A stretch of 64,000 nt of DNA from an uncultured Mycoplasmatota bacterium (lineage in GTDB: Bacteria > Bacillota_I > Bacilli_A > RF39 > UBA660), in the NCBI GenBank assembly GCA_947652325.1, contig CANTCQ010000001.1, forward strand, positions 1-64,000, read 5' to 3'. Below are positions 43,520-57,106 of the stretch, piece by piece; position 1 is the stretch's first letter; the number at the start of each line of letters is the position of its first letter. The translations under genes and the position numbers were made by a program. A model generated the notes under the pieces. The model saw only the letters and a program-made list of their open reading frames with translations, was not told the origin of the DNA and made no database searches.

Positions 43520-43539
43520 AAGAAAAAGAGTTGATACTA

Positions 43540-45144
43540 ATGATACTAAGAAAACCTTATGCTTTTTTAATTAAGCATTTTCGTATAATTCATTTATTAT
43601 TGCTTTTGCCTATGGCTTATTTAATTCATCGTACTTTTTTAATTGTTTCATTTTTTAGAACATATGTCAAAAATAATTATACTACGACAATTATTCAAAT
43701 AGCTGCAGAACATATTAGCTTTTTTATGTATTTGGCAGTACTCATGATTGTTTTGGTGATATTACCCATTTATTATTTGATGCGCCAGAAAAGAAAGTCG
43801 ATAAAGCTTTATTTTTTTACTTTGCTATATTATTTATTATTATTTGTTTTAATTGGGGTTACATACAGTATTTTGAGTAATATGGAACACAATTTAATTA
43901 CTGCACAGACAGCAAGAGCTTACCGGGATATTTCGATTGTTTTGTGTTTGCCTCAATATTTTTTCTTTGGTTATATTTTTATGCGAGGTATTGGCTTTGA
44001 TTTAAAAAGATTTAATTTTGCTAATGATTTAAAGGATTTAGAGATTACTGCTATTGATTCTGAAGAATTTGAGTTTAATGTAAATATCGAAGGATATAAA
44101 GTAGAAAGAACTCTTCGAAGATTTTTGCGAGAAATGAAATATTATATTAGAGAAAATACATTTGTATTTGGTTGTATATTTGTATCCTTTGTAATTTTTG
44201 TGGGGACAAGTTTGTACTTCCATTTTGGGGTTTATAATAAAACATATCATATATCTGATAAAATGACACATAATTATTTTAATATTCAAATTATAGACAG
44301 TATGGTTACAAATTTAGGTTATGATGGGAATATTATTACGAAAGGAAAATACTATTTGGTTTTAAAATTATGGATTGAAAATCGTACTGCAATGGATTAT
44401 GAACTTGATTATACCAATTTCCGTTTGGTTTTAAATGGAAAAAATATTTATCCAACTTTAGATAGAGGAGAATATTTTGTTGATTTTGCTAAACCTTATC
44501 GAAGTGAGAAAATAAAACGTCAGTCAAAAGATTATTATGTTCTTGCTTATGAATTTGATGAATCGTATTTAACTAATATGTATACCATTAAAATTTTAGA
44601 GAGTATATCCTATAAAGTGGGAGATATTGCAGCAAAGTATAAAAATATACAATTAAATCCTACCAAAATAAACAATGTAAAAGAGGTACAAAAAGAGAAT
44701 ATGGGAGCATCTATCACTTTGAACGAATCCAATCTTTTGAATACTACATTTCAACTAGAACAATATGAATTCGCAAGTAGTTTTATGTATGAATATGATT
44801 ATTGTATAAATAGTTCTTGCCGAAAATTAAAAAATCGTATTACGCCAAATATAAGTGGCTCTATCGAAAAGACTACATTATTAATTTTAGATATGAATTA
44901 TCATTTGGATTCTGAAGCAATTTATACAAATTTTATTAAAAATAAGTTGCAATTTCTTGACCAATTTTTTTCGCTACGCATTGTTAAAAATGGTGAAACT
45001 CTCATTTTACCTTTAAAAAATAGAACCAATGAGCATATTCAAAATAAAGTAATATTCGAAACTAGAAGTGAAGCGAGGGAAGCGGATACTGTAGAATTGT
45101 TACTTACTGTGCGTGATAAAAGATATGTTTATTTATTAAGATAA
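43540..45144 (+). CDS. polytopic membrane protein with extracellular C-terminal domain
   Basis: 534 residues from ATG 43540; TTG 43531 is an alternative. Four transmembrane helices lie in the first 160 residues, then an amphipathic stretch and another helix at about 205-230. The last 300 residues are extracytoplasmic and beta-rich: KGKYYLVLKLWIENRTAMDY and NFRLVLNGKNIYPTLDRGEY resemble a DUF4352-type immunoglobulin-like domain. Function unknown. Confidence 0.6.
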   Translation: MILRKPYAFLIKHFRIIHLLLLLPMAYLIHRTFLIVSFFRTYVKNNYTTTIIQIAAEHISFFMYLAVLMIVLVILPIYYLMRQKRKSIKLYFFTLLYYLLLFVLIGVTYSILSNMEHNLITAQTARAYRDISIVLCLPQYFFFGYIFMRGIGFDLKRFNFANDLKDLEITAIDSEEFEFNVNIEGYKVERTLRRFLREMKYYIRENTFVFGCIFVSFVIFVGTSLYFHFGVYNKTYHISDKMTHNYFNIQIIDSMVTNLGYDGNIITKGKYYLVLKLWIENRTAMDYELDYTNFRLVLNGKNIYPTLDRGEYFVDFAKPYRSEKIKRQSKDYYVLAYEFDESYLTNMYTIKILESISYKVGDIAAKYKNIQLNPTKINNVKEVQKENMGASITLNESNLLNTTFQLEQYEFASSFMYEYDYCINSSCRKLKNRITPNISGSIEKTTLLILDMNYHLDSEAIYTNFIKNKLQFLDQFFSLRIVKNGETLILPLKNRTNEHIQNKVIFETRSEAREADTVELLLTVRDKRYVYLLR

Positions 45145-45213
45145 TATTTATATTGTAGCATAAAATTTTTGACAAATAAAAATATATGTTATTCCATAGT
45201 TAAGCGGTGATAA

Positions 45214-45242
45214 TAAAGCCTTTATTTATAGGGCTTTTTTTG
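45214..45242 (+). terminator. rho-independent terminator
   Basis: AAAGCC / GGCTTT stem with an 11-nt loop and a run of seven or more Ts, 75 nt after the preceding stop. The rest of 45145-45480 shows no gene. Confidence 0.7.
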
Positions 45243-45486
45243 TTTAAAAATGTGAATTTTATGTAGTTGTGACGGATTTGTAACGATTTGATTCAAAAAA
45301 ATTAATAAAAAAACTATTCCATAGATTATTATTAAAACATATTTTAAACCAATTTTTAAATACTAAAAATATAGTTGTATTATGAAATATTAAATCTTAT
45401 AAAGTTATTAAAAAAGTAGCTGTAAAGTTATGTGTATTAATAAAAATAAAATGTATACTAAATATCAAATTATTACTATTTTGATG

Positions 45487-45492
45487 TATAAT
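45487..45492 (+). promoter_or_regulatory. -10 element before the 45518 gene
   Basis: TATAAT at 45487-45492, followed by AAAGGAAG and ATG 45518. Confidence 0.5.
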
Positions 45493-45517
45493 AAGTTATA
45501 GTAAAGGAAGATTAAAG

Positions 45518-47026
45518 ATGTCTATTTTTAATAATTTTTTAAAACATAAAATTTCTAACACAGATACTGCAGTTGATTTAGCTAACAAAGAAGTAATGTC
45601 TAATCATTATGTTTCAAATAATGGTGTAGTTGACGATTTTATATTTGATGAAAATGAACTTGTTGATATTGCTATCGATGGGGTGATTGATACTACATCG
45701 GTACTTGCTATAAAAAAATTTAAGCATAATTTGGAAGTTTTAGTAAAAAGAGCAAAGGAAAAAGGAACTCTTGATAAGTTTATGATTATAAGAAATGATG
45801 ATTTTTTTCCAAATGATTATAAATGGCGTGTTGCATCACAATTTACTTGTATTGAGAGAAATTATTTGGCTTTATTGAGGAATGCAAGAGATATTTATGC
45901 TTTAGAAAAAGCCAATTTAATTCGTAAATTTAATGGAATGATGTTGCCAGTTACTTTAGATGATTTAGATTTAGCACTATCAAATATAGATAAAGAAATT
46001 GGTTCAATTTTAAGTCCAGTTCATTTTCGTTCGACAAAACATTTTACCGTAAATACCCCATTAGCTGTTACAGGAAATTATAATTTATTATCTTCTAATA
46101 GGAATTTTACAGTTTTAGATACTATTGATACATTTTTAAGTTCTGGATATGGATATTCTATTAGTTATCATGATGCTTATTTAGATGTTACTCATGAAGG
46201 TTTATCTATTTCTGATGAAGCAGTGGTGTTAATTAATAAAGATAAATATAATGATATTGTTAAAAATGAACTTATTAAGTCACAATTAAAACAAAGAAGG
46301 GTAGTTCTTTATGTAGAAGACGAAAAAAAGAAATATGGGGAAAGTCTAGCAATTAATATGCTTCTTACCGAGCTTGGAGTTTTGCCTTCACAAATTGGAG
46401 AAAAATATAGTTTTTATGATAATGAAATTAGAGAAATTATTAATAATAGTATAAAAAAATTAGCTAAAGATAATGGATTATTGTTTGATAAAATTCATGG
46501 AGGAAGAAATGGTCATTTTACTGATTATTATGATGAAAAGAATACAGACTATGTTAAAAGTATTGAAAATTTTGTAAAATTTTTAAAAATAAAATTTCCA
46601 GATAAGGCATCTTATTTTACAATAAAAAGTGTAACGGATGATAATCTTTCTACAAATATAGTGGAAAAGGTAGGAGCAAAAACTATACTGGAGGCAAGTA
46701 AAGAATATAATTTATTAGTTCAAAAAGAATTTGAAGAACGTTTTAATGAATATAAAAAAGATAGACAGAGTATTACTCCAGAGATAAGTAATTATTTTAA
46801 ATTGACTGTAAAACGTATAGTTGATTTTTATAATAATTTTGAAGCAGTTAATTGCTCTTTAGAAAATCAAAAACAAATTGAAGAGTGTATACAACATTTT
46901 TATCAAGACAGTACAGTAAAAGAACAAATTATAGCAGCTCAAAAATTGTGGGAATCTTTAGTTAGTGCTTTAGATGCAAGTCAAGAAATCACTTTAGCTG
47001 ATGAAACAGGTTCTTTAAAATTTTAA
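45518..47026 (+). CDS. 502-residue protein of unknown function
   Basis: No signal peptide or membrane helix. The middle has HFRSTKHFTVNTPLAVTGNY and TFLSSGYGYSISYHDAYLDV, then VVLYVEDEKKKYGESLAINM, which look like a compact enzymatic or binding domain. The conserved-looking HGGRNGHFTDYYDEK follows. The C-terminal 130 residues are helical (EEFEERFNEYKKDRQSITPE). I cannot assign a family. It stands alone, followed by 870 nt of decayed DNA, in an accessory region. Confidence 0.6.
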   Translation: MSIFNNFLKHKISNTDTAVDLANKEVMSNHYVSNNGVVDDFIFDENELVDIAIDGVIDTTSVLAIKKFKHNLEVLVKRAKEKGTLDKFMIIRNDDFFPNDYKWRVASQFTCIERNYLALLRNARDIYALEKANLIRKFNGMMLPVTLDDLDLALSNIDKEIGSILSPVHFRSTKHFTVNTPLAVTGNYNLLSSNRNFTVLDTIDTFLSSGYGYSISYHDAYLDVTHEGLSISDEAVVLINKDKYNDIVKNELIKSQLKQRRVVLYVEDEKKKYGESLAINMLLTELGVLPSQIGEKYSFYDNEIREIINNSIKKLAKDNGLLFDKIHGGRNGHFTDYYDEKNTDYVKSIENFVKFLKIKFPDKASYFTIKSVTDDNLSTNIVEKVGAKTILEASKEYNLLVQKEFEERFNEYKKDRQSITPEISNYFKLTVKRIVDFYNNFEAVNCSLENQKQIEECIQHFYQDSTVKEQIIAAQKLWESLVSALDASQEITLADETGSLKF

Positions 47027-47816
47027 AGAATGTATAGTATGGTAAATTTTTATGTATACTTAAAAGATAATTTAGATAATTTAGGTTTAAAAAAATATAA
47101 ATAGTTTTAATGATATAACTAATTAGAAAGTAAAATAGCTTTTTGGTGATGAAGAAATAAATGTTGATTTAAAAATTGCTATTATAGAGTCAGGTTAAAG
47201 AATTAATAATTTGCCTTTTAATCTTTTTATAGAAATTATTGCTTGTATGTATAATGACTATTTATTTTAAAGTAGGGATTGAATTATAAATTTTATTAAG
47301 TTATTTTTTTCTTTTTACTAGTGGATATTCCTTATTTTTGGATAAAATATCATAAGGATTAGTTTCTTCTCATGTCTTTTCTGTTCTATCTGAAAGCTAA
47401 ATTTATGTGTAAAATTCTATTTAATTGGTTAAACTTATGACTAAAAAACATTTAGTATGTTTCAAATTATCTACTGTATAGTATGATATTTCAACTTAAT
47501 ATGAGCGATTTACTATGTAAGACAATTTGCACCTTTTTCAAGGATTATAGTGTGACCTTTTGATTTATAAATATCAGTAGTTGTATTTCGTATGTAGATT
47601 ATTCTTTTTAGAATGCATATTTGTACAGGAACTAAAAAATAAACTGCATTTTTATAACAATATGTTTTCAACGTATTAATATATTCCAATCATTATCTTT
47701 ATTTTTTCATATGTCCTTTATAAACTAACGAAATGTTCTATGTTGTTTAATTCAGTCTCAAATTTCTTTGCAGTATTATTCATCATTTAAAACCTGTCCT
47801 ATCTAAACTTAAACAC
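47027..47816. other. decayed, gene-free region
   Basis: Both strands hold short protein-like pieces broken by stops. The clearest are on the minus strand from about 47785: MMNNTAKKFETELNNIEHFV and, in another frame, TTDIYKSKGHTIILEKGANC. They suggest one or two former minus-strand genes. Nothing is assignable. Confidence 0.4.
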
Positions 47817-47852
47817 TAAAAAAGTATCAGTTTCTTATAGAAATTGATACTC
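47817..47852 (-). terminator. terminator of tRNA-Cys
   Basis: On the minus strand AGTATCAATTTCT / AGAAACTGATACT with loop ATA, followed by a T run, 48 nt past the CCA end of tRNA-Cys. Confidence 0.75.
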
Positions 47853-47898
47853 ATGTATTTTAAGTCTAAACTTATAAAAGTTCGGACAGATTTCCTAA

Positions 47899-47973
47899 TG
47901 GAGGGCCTAGTCGGATTTGAACCAACGCATGAGTGAGTTGCAGTCACTTGCCTTACCACTTGGCTATAGACCC
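47899..47973 (-). tRNA. tRNA-Cys(GCA)
   Basis: Minus-strand cloverleaf: acceptor GGGTCTA / TAGGCCC (one G-U), D arm AGCCAAGTGGTAAGGCA, anticodon stem GTGA/TCAC with loop CTGCAAC (anticodon GCA), T arm with GGTTCAAATCC, discriminator U and encoded CCA. Confidence 0.93.
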
Positions 47974-48305
47974 ATTTACAATTTTATTGAAATTTGGGGT
48001 AATGAATGCCCTGTTAACATTAAATAATTTTACTCTATAAAGAAAATTTTGTCAATCGTTGTTTAAATCTTATTCACTACTATTTTATGTTAAAGAAGAA
48101 AAAAAGTGATAAGAGTGCCAAAAAGTTTAAAACAAAGTAATGAAATTATAAAATTATTTCATAGATATTTTAAATGAAAAATGAATTCCAACTTCACATT
48201 AATAAATTTACACATAATCAATAAGAAATATCAAAAATATGGTTTAGATTATATAAAAAAACAAAGAGTAAAAGATAAGGTACAATTATTAATTTCTTTT
48301 ATTTG
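47974..48305. other. intergenic region with minor remnants
   Basis: Apart from the tRNA promoter, the + strand holds a fragment KYQKYGLDYIKKQRVKDKVQ (about 48225-48290) without a start, which may be the end of a lost gene. Nothing else is seen. Confidence 0.35.
48027..48055 (-). promoter_or_regulatory. promoter of tRNA-Cys
   Basis: Minus strand: perfect TTGACA, 17-bp spacer, TAAAAT. It is the only full -35 consensus in the window and would give a 5' leader of about 45 nt. Confidence 0.7.
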
Positions 48306-48314
48306 TGATATAAT
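48306..48314 (+). promoter_or_regulatory. extended -10 promoter of the AraC-type gene
   Basis: TGATATAAT with TATAAT at 48309-48314, then GGTGATG and a TTG start. Confidence 0.55.
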
Positions 48315-48331
48315 ATACATGGTGATGTACT

Positions 48332-49114
48332 TTGAATATCTATAAAAGTTTAAATGAAATAACTGAATATATTGATGAAAATTTGGAAGAAGATATTAGT
48401 TATAACATTTTGGCAAAAATGCTAGGGGTAAATGTTTATACTATGCAAAGATTGTTTGCTGTGCTTGTAGGTATTTCATTGTCAGAATATATTAGAAAAA
48501 GAAGATTATCTTGTGCAGGATTTGATTTATATAATGGTAATGTAAAAGTAATAGATATTGCTATTAAATATCAATATAATAATGCTACATCGTTTTCAAG
48601 AGCATTTGAAAAGTTTCATAATATTAAGCCTAGTTTAGTAAAAAAAGAAACAAAATTAAAAAATTTTCCTAAAATACTTTTTAAAGAAGAAATTAATTTA
48701 CCTGTTGTACTAGATTATGAAATAATTACTCTTGATGAAATGAATTTATATGGTGTAGGGATTATTACTAACAATGATAATATTGGTAAAGATGCACCGA
48801 TTTTTTTTGAGCAAATTAAAAATAAATATGGTGAAGTTAAATATGGCATGATTACTTATGATATAGAGCGAGAAGAAAGTCAAAAATATTATTGTTTATA
48901 TGATAAAAAAATTAAGGGATTTGAAAACATTAAAATTCCTAAAAGCAAATGGCTTAAATTTAAAGTTAATTCACAAAAGGCTAGTGATATACAAAATATA
49001 TCTCATAATTTTTATGGAGAATTTTTACCATCAGTTAAGTATAATTTAAAAGAATTACCAGAATTAGAGTATTATCATGATGATATAACTGACTTTTTAG
49101 TTGCAATTTATTGA
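48332..49114 (+). CDS. AraC-family regulator with GyrI-like effector domain
   Basis: 260 residues from TTG 48332. The first 105 residues form the double HTH of AraC/XylS: DISYNILAKMLGVNVYTMQR and VIDIAIKYQYNNATSFSRAF with EKFHNIKPS. The rest (YEIITLDEMNLYGVGIITNN, KYYCLYDKKIKGFENIKIPK, PELEYYHDDITDFLVAIY) is a GyrI/Rob-type small-molecule binding domain. Such proteins sense drugs or other ligands. It precedes the HerA-like operon by 65 nt on the same strand and may control it. Confidence 0.85.
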   Translation: MNIYKSLNEITEYIDENLEEDISYNILAKMLGVNVYTMQRLFAVLVGISLSEYIRKRRLSCAGFDLYNGNVKVIDIAIKYQYNNATSFSRAFEKFHNIKPSLVKKETKLKNFPKILFKEEINLPVVLDYEIITLDEMNLYGVGIITNNDNIGKDAPIFFEQIKNKYGEVKYGMITYDIEREESQKYYCLYDKKIKGFENIKIPKSKWLKFKVNSQKASDIQNISHNFYGEFLPSVKYNLKELPELEYYHDDITDFLVAIY

Positions 49115-49160
49115 ATTGACAAAACAGATTATTAAAAAGTCAGTTTTTTATTATTTATTT

Positions 49161-49169
49161 TGATATATT
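49161..49169 (+). promoter_or_regulatory. possible extended -10 before the HerA-like gene
   Basis: TGATATATT approximates TGn-TATAAT at 49164-49169 (quoted with its upstream TGA). It would start transcription at about 49176, directly at the GTG at 49180, so either translation is leaderless or the true start is elsewhere. Confidence 0.35.
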
Positions 49170-49179
49170 ATTTATTGAG

Positions 49180-51045
49180 GTGACGGATTGTGGGGTAACG
49201 TCAGAAATATATCTAACTAAGAAATTTGTTTCAAAAGAAGAATGGATAAAATTTATTAATACAGTATCAGATTATAATGGTATTTTAAGAAAATGGAAGA
49301 TAATCATTACTAACAATCAAAATCAAGTAAGATATTTTATTAAGACCAAATGTACTTTGCCTACTACGATAAATAATTTGAATTCATTTTTAATAAAACA
49401 ATCATCGGAAATAAAAGTTCCTAAATTTAATTACGCATTACTTTCTTTTCCTAAAATTGGTAGCAGTATTATAGATTTATTAAACTATAGTGAAATTAAA
49501 AATAAAGGTAAACTTGAATATTTAGAAATCAATTTTTTTAAATTTTATGACGATAAACAAAAATCAAAAATAAAATTTTATTTAAATAAAAATGGTGTAA
49601 TTAAAAAATATAAGGTTCTTTTTGCTAATCCAACAAGTATATTATCGGTAGACTTTGAAGGAAATAAAAGATATTTTTATAAGAGCTCTCCTAAATATTT
49701 AGAAATAAATAAAATTTTGCATTTATTAAATAATGATTCTAATAATGCTTTGTTATCTGTTGAAACATTTCCTTATTTACAAGGGGATTTCTATTTAAAT
49801 CAAAATCATTTTAGCTTTGATAAACATTCTATTATTATGGGTTCATCTGGATGCGGTAAATCTAAATTTATAAGTTTGTTAATTAATAACATTAATAAAA
49901 ATAGCAGTATAAAGCAAAAATATAAAGTTGTAGTGATAGACCCTCATGCTTCTCTTGAAAATGATATAGGCGGTATAGGTAAAGTAATAGACTTTAAAAA
50001 CAATTTAGATAGTATTGATTTATTTATTAATAACGATGATGATATAGTAGCCTCAACAGAATTATTATTAGATTTATTAAAAGCTTTAATTACAGTTCAA
50101 TATAATTCAAAATTAGAAAGAATTTTAAGACATTCTATACATTTATTATTAACTGATGAATCATTTAATTTTAGAAATTTAAGAATGCTTATTTTGGATT
50201 TAGAATATAGAAATGGATTAATTAGAAAATTAAAATATAACTTACCTGTTAGTGTAATTGATTTCTTTTTATCAGATTTTAATGATTTGAAAACCAAATC
50301 TTATGGCGAAGCTATATCTCCAATAATAAGTTTTATAGATGAAATGGAAATGATACCCGTTTTTAATTCAGAGCAAAATAATGAAAATTTAAAAAATACC
50401 ATACATAATAATTTTTTAACTTTATTCTCATTAGATAGAACAAAACTTGGAGACAAGGTGACTAAAACTATATCTGGATTAATAATGCAACAACTATTAA
50501 CAATTATTCAGCGTCATGAAATAGATGAACATATTATATTTATTATTGATGAAGTTGCAGTAGTTGAAAATCCTATTTTATCTAGATATTTATCAGAGGC
50601 AAGAAAGTATAATTTATCATTAATATTGGCGGGGCAATATTTTAATCAAATATCCAATGAATTAAAGAATTCGATATTTGCAAACGTAGTAAATTACTTT
50701 ATATTTAGAGTATCTAAGTTAGATGCTAATGTAATAGTTGATAACTTTAACATGAAAATACCTTTGGATGATACTCGAGATAGAAAAATTAAAATATTAA
50801 CTGAATTAAATAATAGAGAGTGTATTGCTAGAATAGATTCTAATGGTATATTATTACCAGCATTTAAAGGTATTACATTAGATTATGTAAGTATTCCTAG
50901 AATAAGAAAAATAATTATAAATGGTAACAATAATAAAAAAAATAATGATTATAAATCAAAAACTAACTTTAGCTTAAATAGTAATGTCAATTTAAAAGAT
51001 ATTTTAATATCTACTTCTTCAAGCAGAAAGGATGTGAAAGAATGA
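49180..51045 (+). CDS. HerA/VirD4-like ATPase
   Basis: 621 residues. The first 210 residues are an unrecognised beta-rich domain. The ATPase core follows: SIIMGSSGCGKSKFISLLIN (Walker A), YKVVVIDPHASLENDIGGIG (a conserved piece of HerA/TraD-type pumps), IIFIIDEVAVVENPILSRYL (Walker B) and SEARKYNLSLILAGQYFNQI (sensor region). The Asn/Lys/Ser-rich tail (about 60 residues) looks disordered. Such ATPases form hexamers that pump DNA or act in repair and defence. GTG 49180 is the only in-frame start and lies in its own GAGGTGA, so the N-terminus is uncertain. It is coupled by ATGA to the next gene. Confidence 0.78.
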   Translation: MTDCGVTSEIYLTKKFVSKEEWIKFINTVSDYNGILRKWKIIITNNQNQVRYFIKTKCTLPTTINNLNSFLIKQSSEIKVPKFNYALLSFPKIGSSIIDLLNYSEIKNKGKLEYLEINFFKFYDDKQKSKIKFYLNKNGVIKKYKVLFANPTSILSVDFEGNKRYFYKSSPKYLEINKILHLLNNDSNNALLSVETFPYLQGDFYLNQNHFSFDKHSIIMGSSGCGKSKFISLLINNINKNSSIKQKYKVVVIDPHASLENDIGGIGKVIDFKNNLDSIDLFINNDDDIVASTELLLDLLKALITVQYNSKLERILRHSIHLLLTDESFNFRNLRMLILDLEYRNGLIRKLKYNLPVSVIDFFLSDFNDLKTKSYGEAISPIISFIDEMEMIPVFNSEQNNENLKNTIHNNFLTLFSLDRTKLGDKVTKTISGLIMQQLLTIIQRHEIDEHIIFIIDEVAVVENPILSRYLSEARKYNLSLILAGQYFNQISNELKNSIFANVVNYFIFRVSKLDANVIVDNFNMKIPLDDTRDRKIKILTELNNRECIARIDSNGILLPAFKGITLDYVSIPRIRKIIINGNNNKKNNDYKSKTNFSLNSNVNLKDILISTSSSRKDVKE

Positions 51046-51740
51046 ATGATATAAAAGCTTTAGAAATTGCTAATAAAATATTTATATGTATATTTGATAG
51101 CAATAATATTTATTCTTTAGATGAATTGTTAGAAAAGTTTGCATTTGATATTAAATTACCCAAACAAGTAAATGACTCGACTACAAATGAAATAACTTGG
51201 GCTGACTCTATTAATAGTGGTAGATTCATAACAAATAAAAATATGGAAAAAAGAGATAAAGAAACAAGCTGGATGCTTCCTAAAAAAGAAATAAATAATT
51301 TGCAAGAACTAATTGATGTATGGAATACTATTAATTTGACTACAACAGAAAGAGTTTATGATTCTATTAATGTAGTAAAAAGTGATACTATTTATAGATG
51401 TGAAAATATTTATAGAAGTACCGATTGTAGTGATTCTAAAAATATGATTTATTGTGATTCTTGTGGGAATAGTGAATTTTTACTTGCATCTCAAAGGTCT
51501 GGTAATTGTAATTTTTGTATAAGATGCGATGATTCTAAAGACTGTAGCAACAGTTATAATGTTATATGTTCAAATAAGGTAAATAATTCTTTATTTATTC
51601 AGGATTGCTTTGATTTATATGAGTGTATGTTCTGTTCTCATATAGCTTCAAAAAGATTTTGCATAGCAAATATGCAATTTGAAGAAGAAGAATATTATGA
51701 AATTAAGCAATTAATAATAGAATGGATATTTAATTCATAA
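51042..51740 (+). CDS. 13-cysteine repeat protein coupled to the HerA-like ATPase
   Basis: 232 residues starting in the ATGA overlap with the ATPase gene (AAGGATG upstream). An N-terminal half of about 105 residues has no clear motif. In the C-terminal half, 13 cysteines recur every 5-12 residues with Ser/Asn/Asp between: YRCENIYRSTDCSDSKNMIY, CDSCGNSEFLL, NCNFCIRCDDSKDCSNSYNV. This looks like a Cys-laddered beta-helix or a multi-zinc fold. The end is FCIANMQFEEEEYYEIKQLI. I recall similar proteins with a Y-C-x-x-N-K-Q-Y end in candidate-phylum bacteria. The pairing suggests that it is a partner of the ATPase. Confidence 0.65.
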   Translation: MNDIKALEIANKIFICIFDSNNIYSLDELLEKFAFDIKLPKQVNDSTTNEITWADSINSGRFITNKNMEKRDKETSWMLPKKEINNLQELIDVWNTINLTTTERVYDSINVVKSDTIYRCENIYRSTDCSDSKNMIYCDSCGNSEFLLASQRSGNCNFCIRCDDSKDCSNSYNVICSNKVNNSLFIQDCFDLYECMFCSHIASKRFCIANMQFEEEEYYEIKQLIIEWIFNS

Positions 51741-51846
51741 AAAAATTAAAAATTATATTGAATAAATTTTAAACTAATTTAGTTACTAATTCAAAAAAAT
51801 ATTATTTTATATATTTTTTATTTTTGTAAATTTCTTAAAAAAAGTA

Positions 51847-51875
51847 TTGCATTAATGTCCTATTTTTGATAACAT
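51847..51875 (+). promoter_or_regulatory. promoter of the SipW-locus first gene
   Basis: TTGCAT, 17-bp spacer, TAACAT at 51870-51875. The gene follows after AAGGAGG. Confidence 0.55.
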
Positions 51876-51900
51876 TTTTATTGTAAGGAGGATATGAAGT

Positions 51901-52707
51901 ATGGAAAAGAAAAACACAATATTGTTAACAATTATTGCAATTGCAACTTTATTAGTTGCTGTAGTAGGGGCAACATTTGCATATTTTACTGCACAAGTAA
52001 CTACAGATAATCAAAATAATAATCAAACTACTGTAGAAACTGCTGCTTTAGTAAATGCAAGCATGAATATGGGTGATAAGATTGAAGTTGCTAATGCTCT
52101 TCCAGGTTTTCAGACTTTTAAAACAATTGATATAAAAGGAAGTTGTAAGTTTGATGATGCAACAAAATGTACAGATGTTAATACGGTAATTACTTTAACG
52201 GCTGGCGAAGATATTACATCTTTTGTACCTACTGGAGTAACAGATGGTACTTCTCACGTTAAGTATACTTTATATAAAAAAGATAATAATTCTACTAGTG
52301 CTAATAAAGATGCTAAAATTAATTGTACAAATATTAACGATGACGGAAGTCATAAAAATACCAATATGTCAGAAAATATTACGCAAACAGGTGAAGATGG
52401 GACTACACAAGTACCATCCAATATTACTAAATATTGGGATGCTGGAGTTTGTACACCAGAGGTAGGTTTAACTGAAGTTAAGACAGGGTATTTTGTTGAT
52501 AATACTCCAATAACTGAATTAGTTACAGTTAAAGCTAGTACTAATGATACTTATTATTTGTTAATTGAATATATCAATGATGAAACTGCTGCGCAAGATG
52601 AAGAACAAGGTAAAAAGTTTACAATAAATATTGATTTTAGTATTGGAACTGATTCAAAACCTAATACAACAGTGACTAAAACACCAGGAGTTGTTACACA
52701 ACCATAA
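51901..52707 (+). CDS. camelysin/TasA-like SipW-dependent exported protein
   Basis: 268 residues. The N-terminus MEKKNTILLTIIAIATLLVA then VVGATFAYFT is the SipW-type signal, cut after GATFA. The mature part is Asn/Thr-rich with beta-strand patterns (KFTINIDFSIGT, ITLTAGEDI) and has 5 cysteines in the central part. TasA/camelysin proteins form fibres or surface layers. The Thr-rich end is TTVTKTPGVVTQP. The next genes include the matching peptidase SipW. Confidence 0.8.
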   Translation: MEKKNTILLTIIAIATLLVAVVGATFAYFTAQVTTDNQNNNQTTVETAALVNASMNMGDKIEVANALPGFQTFKTIDIKGSCKFDDATKCTDVNTVITLTAGEDITSFVPTGVTDGTSHVKYTLYKKDNNSTSANKDAKINCTNINDDGSHKNTNMSENITQTGEDGTTQVPSNITKYWDAGVCTPEVGLTEVKTGYFVDNTPITELVTVKASTNDTYYLLIEYINDETAAQDEEQGKKFTINIDFSIGTDSKPNTTVTKTPGVVTQP

Positions 52708-52725
52708 TTGTATATATTTTAAAAA

Positions 52726-52756
52726 TGAAAAGTCTATTTTAGAATAGATTTTTTTA
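52726..52756 (+). terminator. weak terminator
   Basis: TCTATT / AATAGA short stem with 4-nt loop and T run, between the first and second gene of the SipW locus. Confidence 0.5.
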
Positions 52757-52785
52757 TTGCTCCTAAATAAGCAATATGTTATACT
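52757..52785 (+). promoter_or_regulatory. promoter of the calcium-repeat gene
   Basis: TTGCTC, 17-bp spacer, extended -10 TGTTATACT (TATACT at 52780-52785). Confidence 0.7.
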
Positions 52786-52812
52786 GAAAATAATAAGGAG
52801 GCTCGTATTTGA

Positions 52813-54123
52813 ATGAGAAGATTAGAAAATGATAGTGATGATTATCAAGAACAATATGACATTTTAATAGCTGAAGAACAAGAAAAACAAAGAAAAAAAA
52901 TGTTTTGGGTTATTTTCTTTTGTTTAGTCATTATTTTATTTTCTGTATTAGGAGCTACTTATTCTTATTATAAGATTTATATTGAAGTTAATAAAATAGA
53001 ACTTAATGTAGATACAGATGGAGATGGAATACCAGATTTAAATATTGATATTAGTGGTAATGGAATTTGTGATGTTAATTGTGATACAAATGGAGATATG
53101 AAACCTGATTTGAATGTTAGCTATAATAAGAAACAAAATTCAGCTATTTTTAATATAGATACAGATGGAGATGGAAAGCCAGATACTAACTTAATAAATC
53201 AAGATTTGAATGGTGATGGAATTTGTGATTTAAATTGTGATACAAATGATGATGGATTCCCAGATGTAAACATTGATATAAACGGAGATGGAAAGCCAGA
53301 ACTTAATATAGATGTAGATAAAGATGGAAAACCGAATGTAAATATTGATATTAATGGTGATATGAAGCCAGATGTAAATATCGACTATGATGGAGATGGA
53401 ATACCGGATTTTAATATCGATACAGATGGAGATGGAATACCAGATAAGTCTTTTACAAATCAAGATACAGATAAAGATGGAGTTTGTAATTTGAATTGTG
53501 ATATAAACGAAGATGGAATACCAGATATTAATCTTGACTTTGATGATGATGGAATACCTGAGTTGAATATTGATACTGATAAAAACTTTACATGCGATTT
53601 AAATTGTGATACAAATTATGATAAAATTTGTGATTTTAAGTGTGATATAAATGGTGACATAATTTGTGATGTTAATTGTGAAGAGCCTATTAAACCAGAT
53701 AATAACGAAAAGTGTGAAATTAACTGTGATCCTATTTTAGATGTGCAAGCAAATTTACATGTTTCTTATAAAAAAAGTGTACTTGCTTCTGGTATAAATT
53801 TGGGGTGGACAGATTCTATTAAATTTACAGTAGAAAACCATTCTAATGTATCTGTTGTTTATAATTTAAATTGGATAAATGTTGTTAATCAGTTTACACT
53901 TTCTAATTCTCTTACTTATGATGTTTTAGTAAATGGAAAAGAACAATATAGTTATGTTCCTGTTCCAAAAAATGATTCGAATCTTTTAAGTCATCTTGTT
54001 ATACCTGCTCATACAACTTATTTGTATGAGATTCAGTATATGTTTAATAATTTAGATGAAAATCAAGATATGGAGCAAGGAAAAATATTTAGTGCCCAAA
54101 TAGAAGCAGAAATCGTACAATAA
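52813..54123 (+). CDS. surface protein with about 20 calcium-binding-like Asp/Asn repeats and camelysin-like C-domain
   Basis: 436 residues. A short cytoplasmic acidic part is followed by a transmembrane helix (FWVIFFCLVIILFSVLGATY). Residues about 55-300 are tandem 10-14-residue repeats of two kinds: DTDGDGIPDLNID-type and the Cys form NGDGICDLNCDTN. The D-x-D/N-G-D-G-x-P-D loops fit thrombospondin type 3/dockerin-like calcium sites. The last 125 residues (LHVSYKKSVLASGINLGWTD, KFTVENHSNVSVVYNLNW, QYMFNNLDENQDMEQGK) match the camelysin-type fold, so it is probably a SipW cargo or stays anchored. The Cys repeats may form disulfide ladders. Confidence 0.8.
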   Translation: MRRLENDSDDYQEQYDILIAEEQEKQRKKMFWVIFFCLVIILFSVLGATYSYYKIYIEVNKIELNVDTDGDGIPDLNIDISGNGICDVNCDTNGDMKPDLNVSYNKKQNSAIFNIDTDGDGKPDTNLINQDLNGDGICDLNCDTNDDGFPDVNIDINGDGKPELNIDVDKDGKPNVNIDINGDMKPDVNIDYDGDGIPDFNIDTDGDGIPDKSFTNQDTDKDGVCNLNCDINEDGIPDINLDFDDDGIPELNIDTDKNFTCDLNCDTNYDKICDFKCDINGDIICDVNCEEPIKPDNNEKCEINCDPILDVQANLHVSYKKSVLASGINLGWTDSIKFTVENHSNVSVVYNLNWINVVNQFTLSNSLTYDVLVNGKEQYSYVPVPKNDSNLLSHLVIPAHTTYLYEIQYMFNNLDENQDMEQGKIFSAQIEAEIVQ

Positions 54124-54127
54124 TGTT

Positions 54128-54160
54128 ACTCATAGCAAGTTTTACTTATGAGTTTTTTTC
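54128..54160 (+). terminator. rho-independent terminator
   Basis: ACTCATA / TATGAGT stem with 12-nt loop and a long T run. Confidence 0.7.
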
Positions 54161-54189
54161 TTGTTTTTTTTTGTATTGTAGATTATAAT
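54161..54189 (+). promoter_or_regulatory. promoter of sipW
   Basis: TTGTTT, 17-bp spacer, TATAAT at 54184-54189. Confidence 0.65.
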
Positions 54190-54215
54190 AATAAAGAATA
54201 GAAAGGGTTAACAGT

Positions 54216-55073
54216 ATGAAAACAAAAGAAAATTATACTGGTTTTAAAGGTATTGTAAAATTTATTACCAATGTAGTTTCTTGGACTGCTTTGGTGATTT
54301 TAATATTGTTGGCCATTTTTTTAGCTTATTATACGATTAATACTAAATTATATGAAAAAAAAGGAGAGAAGTTTGAGCCCTTTATTTCTTTATATACTAT
54401 TGTGAGTGGAAGTATGGAACCTAACATAAAAATAGGTGATGTAGTTGTTTCTAAAAAAGTAAAATCTCCAACTGAAATAAAAATAGGTGATGTTATTACG
54501 TTTACTTCTACTAGTTCTATATCTCGTGGTATGATTGTAACTCACCGTGTAATAGATATAATGAAAACAGAAAATGGATATGCCTATAAGACAAAAGGTG
54601 ATTATAATGTTAGTCCCGATACGGCTCTGGCAGAATATCATAATATTATTGGAAAAGTCATCGTTCGTATTCCGCAATTGGGTCAAGTACAAAGATTTTT
54701 GGGTACTCAAGGGGGATGGTTAATTGTCATAGTTATTCCTGCTTTATTTATTATTATTTCCGATATATTGAAAATTTTTAAGCTTACTGGAGTTAAAAAT
54801 AGAATAGAGAAAATAAATGAAGAACAAGTTTATTTTAAACAAGAACAAGACAAAAAAGAAAAGGCCCGAAAAGAGATATTAAAAAAACAATTAGGTTTGT
54901 TAGAGAAAAATCCAAATGAACCAGAACCAATTATAATAAAAAAAACAGTTCGAAGTGTAGTTGGAGAAAAATCAAAGTTCAAAAATGTGAGGTTTGAAAA
55001 AGTTAATAAACCATTTCCTAGGCATTTTAGAAATAGACGAAATCGTAATGATTCAACACAATATAAACGTTAA
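54216..55073 (+). CDS. sipW: signal peptidase I, SipW type (S26B)
   Basis: 285 residues. An N-terminal helix (TALVILILLAIFLAYYTINT) precedes the catalytic Ser motif YTIVSGSMEPNIKIGDVVV. The second conserved block is GDVITFTSTSSISRGMIVTH with RVIDI, where ER-type S26B enzymes have His in place of the Lys base. A second helix near residue 175 and a basic Lys/Arg-rich tail of about 90 residues follow; the tail is longer than usual. It cuts the SipW-type signals of the neighbouring products. It ends one base into the 55073 ATG of the track, which is not the real start of the next gene. Confidence 0.88.
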   Translation: MKTKENYTGFKGIVKFITNVVSWTALVILILLAIFLAYYTINTKLYEKKGEKFEPFISLYTIVSGSMEPNIKIGDVVVSKKVKSPTEIKIGDVITFTSTSSISRGMIVTHRVIDIMKTENGYAYKTKGDYNVSPDTALAEYHNIIGKVIVRIPQLGQVQRFLGTQGGWLIVIVIPALFIIISDILKIFKLTGVKNRIEKINEEQVYFKQEQDKKEKARKEILKKQLGLLEKNPNEPEPIIIKKTVRSVVGEKSKFKNVRFEKVNKPFPRHFRNRRNRNDSTQYKR

Positions 55074-55096
55074 TGATTGCATTGTATTTTTTTCAT

Positions 55097-55105
55097 TGGT
55101 ATAAT
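55097..55105 (+). promoter_or_regulatory. extended -10 promoter
   Basis: TGGTATAAT with TATAAT at 55100-55105, upstream of GGGGAAG and ATG 55133. Confidence 0.55.
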
Positions 55106-55132
55106 AGCAGTCAATGTGGGGAAGTTATTGGT

Positions 55133-55681
55133 ATGAAAACGATTAAGGATATTAATTATTTAATTTTAAAAAAGGTTATTGAGATTATTTTAGTATTTTA
55201 TATTATGTTTTATTCGACTTCTATATGGAGTTTTAATTCTACTCAAAATGATTTGTCTACTTCTATGACTCTTTCTAGTTTAAAACACACTAGACTTCAA
55301 GTTAAAGAGCCACAGAAGTACTCTATTTATCCCATGCAAAATTCTATTGCTTTACAGGAACAGAATGTTTGGTCTTTATATGTTAATAATAAAACAATGA
55401 TTGAAGAATCTTATTTATTGGTTTTGAATTTATCTAAAGATTCAACAATTGATTATCAACTTTTAAACATATCACTTGGAAAAGATATTTTTTCTTTAAG
55501 TGACCTACCAATGGAAGAAATAAGTAATAGTTATTATTTCATTTTAGATGAAAATACAATAAAAAATATGACAAAGTTTTATGAAATCCGTATATGGTTA
55601 AAAGCGGAAATTGGTAACGAGATGCAAGCAAAAAAAATGAATATATCTTTTGAATTAGTAAATGGAGTTGCTTCTGTTTAA
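55133..55681 (+). CDS. SipW-locus exported protein
   Basis: 182 residues from ATG 55133; the longer ORF start at 55073 lies upstream of the promoter. An N-terminal hydrophobic segment (IEIILVFYIMFYSTSIWSF) is followed by a beta-rich part (YSIYPMQNSIALQEQNVWSL, YYFILDENTIKNMTKFYEIR, IWLKAEIGNEMQAKKMNISF). The last motif resembles the C-terminal strand of camelysin-type proteins. Probably a membrane-anchored or secreted part of the surface structure. Confidence 0.6.
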   Translation: MKTIKDINYLILKKVIEIILVFYIMFYSTSIWSFNSTQNDLSTSMTLSSLKHTRLQVKEPQKYSIYPMQNSIALQEQNVWSLYVNNKTMIEESYLLVLNLSKDSTIDYQLLNISLGKDIFSLSDLPMEEISNSYYFILDENTIKNMTKFYEIRIWLKAEIGNEMQAKKMNISFELVNGVASV

Positions 55682-55738
55682 CGTTTTTCAACTTGTAAAA
55701 TGTTATTATTTTTGCTATTATGAAAATATGGTGATACT

Positions 55739-57106
55739 ATGGACTATAAGAAGATTTTCAAAAGAGAAACTAAAGTTATTGCTTATATGGTTATCTGTTT
55801 GACTTTGTTAGTTATGGGCGTTAGTTATGCTTTATTTTTACAAGTAAATAGTAATACCAAAAATCAAGTTGTTACAACTGGAAGTTTGCAAATTGAGTAT
55901 TCAGCTCAAAATGATATAATTGTTGGCGAAAATGATTGCTTAATGCCTCAAAGTAATGATGAAGCTCTTCACGGAAATGCTTGTTCCTATACTTTAAGTA
56001 TAACAAATAAAGGTTCTTTGCCTATGCAATATAACTTGTTGATTTATGATGATGATGTACAATTACCAACGGGTGGAAAAAAAGTAAGCCATTCTTTGAT
56101 TCATCATTCTCTTACTAAATCTTTTGGAGAAGCGAGTAGTACTGTTTCTTCTGGTACTGCTCTAGGGGATTTACCTCTCAAAGAAAATAAAAGATTATTA
56201 GAAACAAATACAATTGCAGTTGGTGAAACTATTGTTTTTCATTTGAAAATATGGATTGATGAAAATGCTCCAAGTGAAGGAGAAAATGGAATAATAGGTC
56301 ACTATGTGTATTTAAAGTTAGATGTAACTGGAACAGTTTATGAAAATGAAACGGCAACAGAAGTATTAACAGCTACATTAGATACTAGTGGTTTATCTGA
56401 AATTATATTATCAACACTTGATGAAGCAAATCAAAATATAATCAAAGAATATCGCTATAGTGGTAAAAATCCAAATAATTATGTTTTTTATAATTGTAGT
56501 AATGATGAAGATGTAAGCACTTGTGAAACATGGAGAATTCTGGGAATTTATAATATCAATAATGAAAGTCATATAAAACTTATAAAAGATACACATGAAG
56601 AAGAAAAACCTTGGGATGAATCAAAAGGAGTCTCTTATTCTACATCTTCTTTAAATACTTATTTAAATGCTTATTACAGTAATTTAAGTGAAACTGCAAA
56701 AGGACAAATTGGTGCTGTTACTTACAAATTAGGTGGAGCTGAGAATTTAGAATTTGATAGTAAAACAATGTATGATTATGAATTAAAGTCTGCAAACGAT
56801 ATATCTTTGTATGTAGGTTTAATGAATGTAAGTGATTATGCTTTTGCAAGTAGTTTAAAAGAGGAAGATTTTGTAAGTACAATTATTTCTCGAAACGAAA
56901 ATAACTGGTTGTTTACTGGTAAGGAAGAATGGCTTATTAATAAAAACACAAGTAATCAAGTGTACAAAATTTCTACTAATGGAAGTATTGAAGTTGCTGC
57001 AACTAATGAAGCTAAGTTAATACGACCAGTTGTTGCTTTACAAAGTAGTGTTAAAATTATTGGTGGAGATGGAACAAAAGAAAATCCGTATATGTTATCA
57101 AAATAG
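55739..57106 (+). CDS. SipW-type surface protein with DUF6273-like C-terminal domain
   Basis: 455 residues. The N-terminus VIAYMVICLTLLVMGVSYAL is a SipW-type signal with a camelysin-like domain to about residue 205 (TGSLQIEYSAQNDIIVGEND, ACSYTLSITNKGSLPMQYNL, IGHYVYLKLDVTG). The second half has NYVFYNCSNDEDVSTCETWR, HIKLIKDTHEEEKPWDESK and ends with LIRPVVALQSSVKIIGGDGT and NPYMLSK. This matches DUF6273-like modules of surface proteins, related in layout to the left-edge protein ending GVRPRF. GGTGAT precedes ATG 55739. Confidence 0.8.
   Translation: MDYKKIFKRETKVIAYMVICLTLLVMGVSYALFLQVNSNTKNQVVTTGSLQIEYSAQNDIIVGENDCLMPQSNDEALHGNACSYTLSITNKGSLPMQYNLLIYDDDVQLPTGGKKVSHSLIHHSLTKSFGEASSTVSSGTALGDLPLKENKRLLETNTIAVGETIVFHLKIWIDENAPSEGENGIIGHYVYLKLDVTGTVYENETATEVLTATLDTSGLSEIILSTLDEANQNIIKEYRYSGKNPNNYVFYNCSNDEDVSTCETWRILGIYNINNESHIKLIKDTHEEEKPWDESKGVSYSTSSLNTYLNAYYSNLSETAKGQIGAVTYKLGGAENLEFDSKTMYDYELKSANDISLYVGLMNVSDYAFASSLKEEDFVSTIISRNENNWLFTGKEEWLINKNTSNQVYKISTNGSIEVAATNEAKLIRPVVALQSSVKIIGGDGTKENPYMLSK

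Follow-up and report, generated by a model that had tools for sequence, protein, structure and literature searches.

HerA/VirD4-type motors recur at the core of bacterial immunity and of DNA transfer, and it is the partner protein that gives such a motor its specificity. In the HerA-nuclease, HerA-SIR2 and HerA-DUF4297 complexes, a two-gene architecture joins a DUF87 ATPase to a nuclease or NADase, while conjugative coupling proteins (VirD4/TrwB/TraG) are marked by nearby relaxase and T4SS genes and by an N-terminal membrane anchor. Bacillus phages encode VirD4-like ATPases of 800-900 aa whose partner is Replic_Relax. For example, the gene for gp27.4 of phage SPO1 overlaps that for gp27.3 (L140 3770-7307), and the two families lie within 10 kb of each other in phage G as a coupling-protein/relaxase-like pair. 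A conserved, mobile pair in which the partner is neither nuclease nor relaxase would, if true, represent a different way to couple such a motor.

A candidate for such a pair is encoded in the window, the whole 64,000-nucleotide stretch analysed here (GC 26%), on contig 1 of the 16-contig, 1.27-Mb genome of an uncultured Mycoplasmatota bacterium. No description of such a cassette was found in the literature searched.

Make-up and linkage of the cassette

The cassette consists of an AraC-type regulator, an ATPase and a cysteine-rich (Cys) protein (Table 1), and nucleotide similarity to the copy in genome G011 sets its limits about 30 nt 5' of araC and 3 nt 3' of the Cys stop codon. The original prediction, made from sequence alone, placed the ATPase and Cys genes in an accessory region behind an AraC/GyrI-like regulator and near tRNA-Cys, and suggested a two-gene module different from HerA-nuclease pairs. 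The location and the distinction hold, but the number of genes does not. The regulator stands beside the pair in 61 of 85 loci, directly before the ATPase in 51 of these 61, and no homologue of it at or above 50% identity was found in a genome lacking the pair; the unit therefore comprises three genes. Many of the loci without a regulator are cut by a contig edge.

Table 1. Positions of the cassette, its parts and the neighbouring tRNA gene in the window.
Feature	Position	Strand	Evidence
Whole cassette	48301..51743	+	nucleotide-level alignment to the G011 copy (blastn, 85% over 3474 columns)
AraC-type HTH + GyrI/Cass2-like ligand-binding regulator, TTG start	48332..49114	+	Pfam, above cut-offs
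Terminator-like palindrome with conserved loop, putative operator/attenuator	49115..49150	+	locus alignment, cassette-specific occurrence
Conserved extended -10 (TGnTATAmT type), no good -35	49161..49169	+	alignment of 53 araC-ATPase intergenic regions
HerA/VirD4-superfamily ATPase, 621 aa, start codon uncertain	49180..51045	+	Pfam, PADLOC, fold matches
Acidic Cys/Ser/Asn-repeat protein, 232 aa	51042..51740	+	ORF; repeat and periodicity analysis; weak phrog_15341 match
tRNA-Cys	47899-47973		beside the accessory region

The expected co-occurrence of the two families was borne out at two scales. The ATPase is present in 13 of 147 relatives, and the same 13 carry the Cys gene directly downstream. 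A Cys-profile scan of 84,980 species genomes returned 156 loci; among the best 80 of these, which were kept, the ATPase lies directly upstream on the same strand in 79, so Cys homologues do not occur mostly without it. The sole exception (L123) is a truncated remnant that is missing residues 1-67, with neither ATPase nor regulator within 10.8 kb. The ATGA overlap that had been noted between the two genes is present in the window and in exactly that form in 15 of about 80 loci; nearly all the rest have spacings from -11 to +7 nt. Between the window and G011, codon positions 1, 2 and 3 of the Cys gene differ by 6, 4 and 23%, which indicates purifying selection. With 13 of 13 relatives and 79 of 80 database loci, the pairing is not due to chance. 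The two genes are nearly inseparable, move horizontally and are under purifying selection, and the pair is probably self-regulated.

Apart from the three genes, no neighbour family occurs in more than 9 of the 85 loci, and no relaxase, integrase, nuclease or T4SS gene recurs beside the cassette. Likewise, among 145 neighbour proteins, neither a relaxase nor a T4SS family ranks within the 25 most frequent Pfam families. A gene of the uracil-DNA-glycosylase superfamily, in some cases fused to a YunG domain, lies close to the cassette in five loci (L079 8848-9768, L112 3511-4413, L081 9494-10069, L089 4290-4865 and L116 1-690) and was not taken as part of the module.

The ATPase and its cysteine-repeat partner

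The ATPase is a soluble member of the HerA/VirD4 superfamily with intact Walker motifs. Both DUF87 (the HerA central domain; 31.2 bits against a cut-off of 23.2) and TrwB_AAD_bind score above their Pfam cut-offs, and TraG-D_C matches too. The N-domain (residues 1-205) matches no family, which agrees with the original description of a DNA-pump core behind an unrecognised N-terminal domain. The motor core (206-565) carries Walker A (221-228), DPH (254-256), Walker B (457-458), Q486 and R510, all invariant in 75 homologues. A variable linker (40% mean identity, against 56% for the N-domain) leads to the C-tail, where the motif LKDILxxxSxSRK (about 602-618) is conserved; its retention beyond the linker suggests a tethered binding peptide. 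The protein is basic (pI 9.2) and lacks a trans-membrane segment or N-terminal anchor, the maximum 19-residue Kyte-Doolittle mean being 1.43, within the core.

The AlphaFold2 model of the ATPase (pLDDT 80.6) finds its closest solved folds in SIR2-HerA, HerA-DUF4297 and other antiphage HerA ATPases, DndH-C, TrwB and VirB4. The closest viral models, phage G gp156 and phage JL S5MSQ0 (TMq 0.53-0.58), give higher TM-scores and cover more of the chain, and phrog_5156 matches with an E-value of 4.5e-15.

The start of the ATPase is uncertain in the window. The GTG at 49180 falls within the ribosome-binding site GAGGTGAC that is conserved in homologues, whose ATG aligns with a GTG at 49190. A base is absent at about 49194-49197, where close homologues have GGGGTTAACG and the window has GGGGTAACG, and this puts the GTG at 49190 out of frame; the absence may reflect either a fault in the assembly or a true difference of this strain. 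The N-terminus of the close homologues is M-G-L-T-S-E-I-[YF]. Given this uncertainty, our conclusions rest on the ATPase family rather than on the window copy.

The Cys protein is acidic (pI 4.6), opposite in charge to the ATPase, and is organised as an N-terminal half (1-100), a repeat region (101-212) and a C-terminal helix. It matches no family in Pfam, NCBIfam or PADLOC. No nuclease recurs among its neighbours, and the earlier statement that no nuclease motif is present stands. The count of 13 cysteines given earlier applies to the repeat part; the whole protein has 14. At 83% mean identity, the repeat region is the best-conserved part of the cassette. Profile autocorrelation is highest at lag 12 (z 6.3), and lags 39, 18, 6 (z 3.6), 24, 30 and 36 are also raised; of these, 18 and 6 are prominent together with 12. 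In the window protein 12 of the 13 repeat cysteines share one phase modulo 3, as do 941 of the 1022 cysteines beyond residue 100 in 83 homologues, and none of these 83 has an indel in the region. Only about five of the 13 are near-invariant: Cys/Ser swaps are seen at C120 (62/21), C156 (63/18) and C159 (61/20), C162 swaps with Thr and Val, and other positions also with Tyr or Trp.

Between the two folds put forward in the original prediction, a laddered beta-helix and a multi-zinc array, this pattern favours the ladder. The repeat register and the swaps fit a cysteine-laddered beta-solenoid, whereas a multi-zinc (zinc-ribbon) array is disfavoured because most cysteines exchange with Ser, Thr or Val and keep the 3n register free of indels; a single zinc site around C195, C198, H200 and C207 is possible. 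The AlphaFold2 model, built from 13 sequences, is of low confidence (pLDDT 41) and was set aside.

Similar Cys-repeat proteins may be common in Patescibacteria. Eleven of 13 members match phrog_15341 weakly, and in the window protein this match is co-linear. Viral contigs, when searched with a degenerate signature, returned one weak homologous fragment (L205), which shares the C-terminal signature K-x-[FY]-C-I-x-N-x-Q-[FY], ends in KKQYCILNKQYTKEEYEEI and lies on a contig resembling tailed-phage structural genes; tblastn of the fragment against phages gave no match. Several other candidate relatives were set aside: pieces of cyanophage P-SSM7 did not match, SPO1 gp27.3 was rejected as a counterpart since it is Replic_Relax, and weak matches at G000:C4 and G055 were taken as chance, the ORFs there looking unrelated.

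Putative control element and horizontal spread

The regulator combines an AraC-type helix-turn-helix with a GyrI-like ligand domain, as in Rob/SbmC-like regulators (HTH_18 55.8, Cass2 39.8 and GyrI-like 34.3 bits, all above cut-off), and NCBIfam RobA matches its residues 9-249 below the cut-off of that model. Between araC and the ATPase lies a 33-nt element, ACTGACAAAAyTGATTnnnnAAAAGTCAGTTTT, which with its flanks (AAACTGACAAAAyTGATTnnnAAAAAGTCAGTTTTTT) is common to 53 loci and is followed in these by the extended -10 and then GAGGTGA. In places a change in one arm is matched by one in the other (GACTGAC with GTCAGTC in L058; ACTGACAATT with AATTGTCAGT in L093), which indicates that a hairpin or palindrome is kept, and the loop is conserved as well, which is more than a plain terminator would need. 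With up to three mismatches allowed, the element occurs exclusively at the cassette in 10 of the 13 cassette genomes and in none of eight same-genus genomes without it. We infer that it is the operator of the regulator, overlapping the araC terminator. Upstream of araC, little is conserved except an extended -10 and a ribosome-binding site, and no conserved sequence was found downstream of the Cys gene.

The slot between araC and the ATPase also accepts other genes. In G024, a transglutaminase-like gene (L034 3257-4297) is flanked by identical copies of the element, and in G030 and G033 a nitroreductase gene is found at this position. The element of G030 precedes the inserted gene and not directly the ATPase, which counts against the reading favoured below.

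The cassette is absent from the matching position of same-genus genome G015, an empty site where the tRNA-Cys-side flank and the gene at 51901 are 130 nt apart, against 3.85 kb in the window. Pairwise identities of the ATPase and the Cys protein correlate closely with each other (r=0.97) but hardly with those of RpoB (0.22 and 0.24, respectively), which indicates that the cassette has been transferred horizontally as a block. For example, RpoB of G063 and G000 is 72% identical, yet the ATPases are 80% and the Cys proteins 87% identical. The cassette occurs in uncultured gut Bacilli. Its distribution is patchy, as the 13 of 147 relatives illustrate, and in class and phylum samples matches were confined to the same bacterial family. 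Searches of 2.9 million viral contigs and of 50,697 phage records returned, at the sensitivity used, no relative of either protein; plasmids gave no relative at useful coverage, their matches being 21-25% identical and spanning no more than 49% of the query. RpoB was chosen as the vertical marker after lysyl-tRNA synthetase was dropped, as two LysS types, 76-89% (G000, G024, G061, G071) and about 45% (G028, G033, G045, G063, G075) identical to that of the window, are scattered within one bacterial family.

The region from 45144 to 51900, between the gene at 43531-45144 and the operon starting at 51901, is a hotspot for varied content. In the window it holds the cassette and a 502-aa orphan gene (45518-47026) with no Pfam family above cut-off; in G007 its genes are different ones, and in G015 the region is nearly empty. 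The operon at 51901-57106 encodes short camelysin/TasA-like proteins with a signal anchor and a protein built of DxNGDGxPDxNxD repeats, which look calcium-binding. It also encodes a signal-peptidase-like protein, with a Peptidase_S26 match just under the cut-off, that is present in 16 of the 22 genomes of this genus.

Possible functions and relation to known systems

The reading we favour, tentatively and with somewhat less than even confidence, is that of a horizontally moving, ligand-inducible three-gene cassette in which a ring and a solenoid act on incoming DNA. The AraC/GyrI protein would sense a small amphipathic molecule or stress signal and, acting through the element, activate the extended -10 promoter. 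The ATPase, which is basic and soluble, would assemble into a ring moving on DNA, and the acidic Cys protein would fold as a rigid beta-solenoid that binds this ring, perhaps via the tethered LKDIL tail, as a cargo selector or clamp. In mechanical terms, the simplest interpretation is a DNA-moving ring guided by an acidic solenoid. Acting together on incoming DNA, the two would most likely provide non-nucleolytic defence against phages or plasmids. Defence against foreign DNA appears the likeliest role in view of the patchy distribution and of the nearest structural relatives of the ATPase, but the case is weakened by the lack of an effector enzyme (no nuclease or NADase was found in the cassette) and by ordinary neighbours. 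The 145 neighbour proteins, which had no matched random set for comparison, showed no clear enrichment of defence genes and do not support a defence-island context.

Defence systems are not usually under the control of an AraC/GyrI protein, which would suit a response to drug or peptide stress as well. Inducible protection, triggered when the regulator detects an antimicrobial peptide or a toxic amphipathic compound and exerted by the ATPase and solenoid, which would shield or remodel the chromosome or enzymes bound to its DNA and not act on invaders, is an unlikely but coherent account of the ligand-binding domain and RobA similarity, the cassette-specific element, the acidic repeat partner and the nitroreductase genes inserted in a few cassettes. 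Against it, the module includes no efflux or modification enzyme, and HerA/VirD4-type motors are not known to take part in drug responses. We regard it as improbable that the cassette is a relict or minimal DNA-transfer or mobilisation device, with its ATPase as the coupling protein that assists the movement of a mobile element or of the cassette itself: the TrwB_AAD_bind and TraG-D_C matches, the TrwB and VirB4 folds, the horizontal spread and the overlap with Replic_Relax in phage relatives such as SPO1 gp27.4 would agree with this, but the absence of recurring relaxase, integrase or T4SS genes, the short and divergent plasmid matches and the missing trans-membrane anchor do not. Least probable of all is that a packaging-like pair from a phage or satellite has been retained in domesticated form. 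The phage G and JL structures, phrog_5156 and the C-terminal signature in a phage-contig fragment point that way, yet the viral searches above found no relative of either protein, and the cassette contains no other phage gene.

A wider claim, which goes beyond the favoured defence reading and which we consider rather doubtful, is that the pair represents a new two-component class of DNA motor: a VirD4/HerA-type ring steered by a disulfide- or thiol-laddered acidic beta-solenoid in place of a relaxase or nuclease, turned on by a sensor of small molecules and passed between gut Bacilli as a self-contained cassette for defence or DNA handling. With sharp borders, a built-in switch and about 150 natural homologues, the cassette is directly testable in a laboratory Bacillus.

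Finally, we compare the cassette with the described systems. It shares with the HerA-nuclease, HerA-SIR2 and HerA-DUF4297 complexes a two-gene motor-partner architecture, a DUF87 ATPase and a fold (PDB matches at E about 1e-10), but its N-domain differs. The HerA profile of PADLOC matches all 12 members; the best HerA profiles otherwise cover short stretches of the ATPase far below cut-off (NF042943, 16.5 against 800 bits). As the Cys protein belongs to no nuclease, SIR2 or DUF4297 effector family and is neither nuclease nor NADase, this is not a HerA-nuclease system. Nor is it MADS: all 12 members match the mad8 profile over the ATPase core (residues 212-512; best E 4.9e-18), but the other mad genes are not in the cassette, a single neighbour in one locus matching mad3, and the resemblance is only mad8-like. 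With no relaxase among the recurring neighbours and no anchor, the ATPase is not a conjugation coupling protein; grouping with such proteins beside a relaxase was a pattern that the original prediction had named as contrary evidence. The Bacillus-phage ATPases have the same motor core (gp156, hhalign E 1.6e-7) and, in the gp156 type, a similar whole fold, and SPO1 gp27.4 likewise overlaps a downstream partner, but that partner is unrelated to the Cys protein. The closest sequence match to the motor core is a TrwB/HerA-like ATPase of an archaeal plasmid (Thermococcus nautili, WP_285519946.1; hhalign E 5e-19, tblastn E 3e-6), which is 1370 aa long and whose annotated neighbours within 4 kb include neither a Cys partner nor an AraC regulator. 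Proteins of phrog_15341, or with the K-x-[FY]-C-I-x-N-x-Q-[FY] signature, align with the C-terminal part of the Cys protein only, have no described function and were seen with no ATPase partner. No known system has this make-up, and the cassette is thus a good candidate for a new module that may act against invaders, one that works like a HerA/VirD4 motor module whose partner is of a new type.
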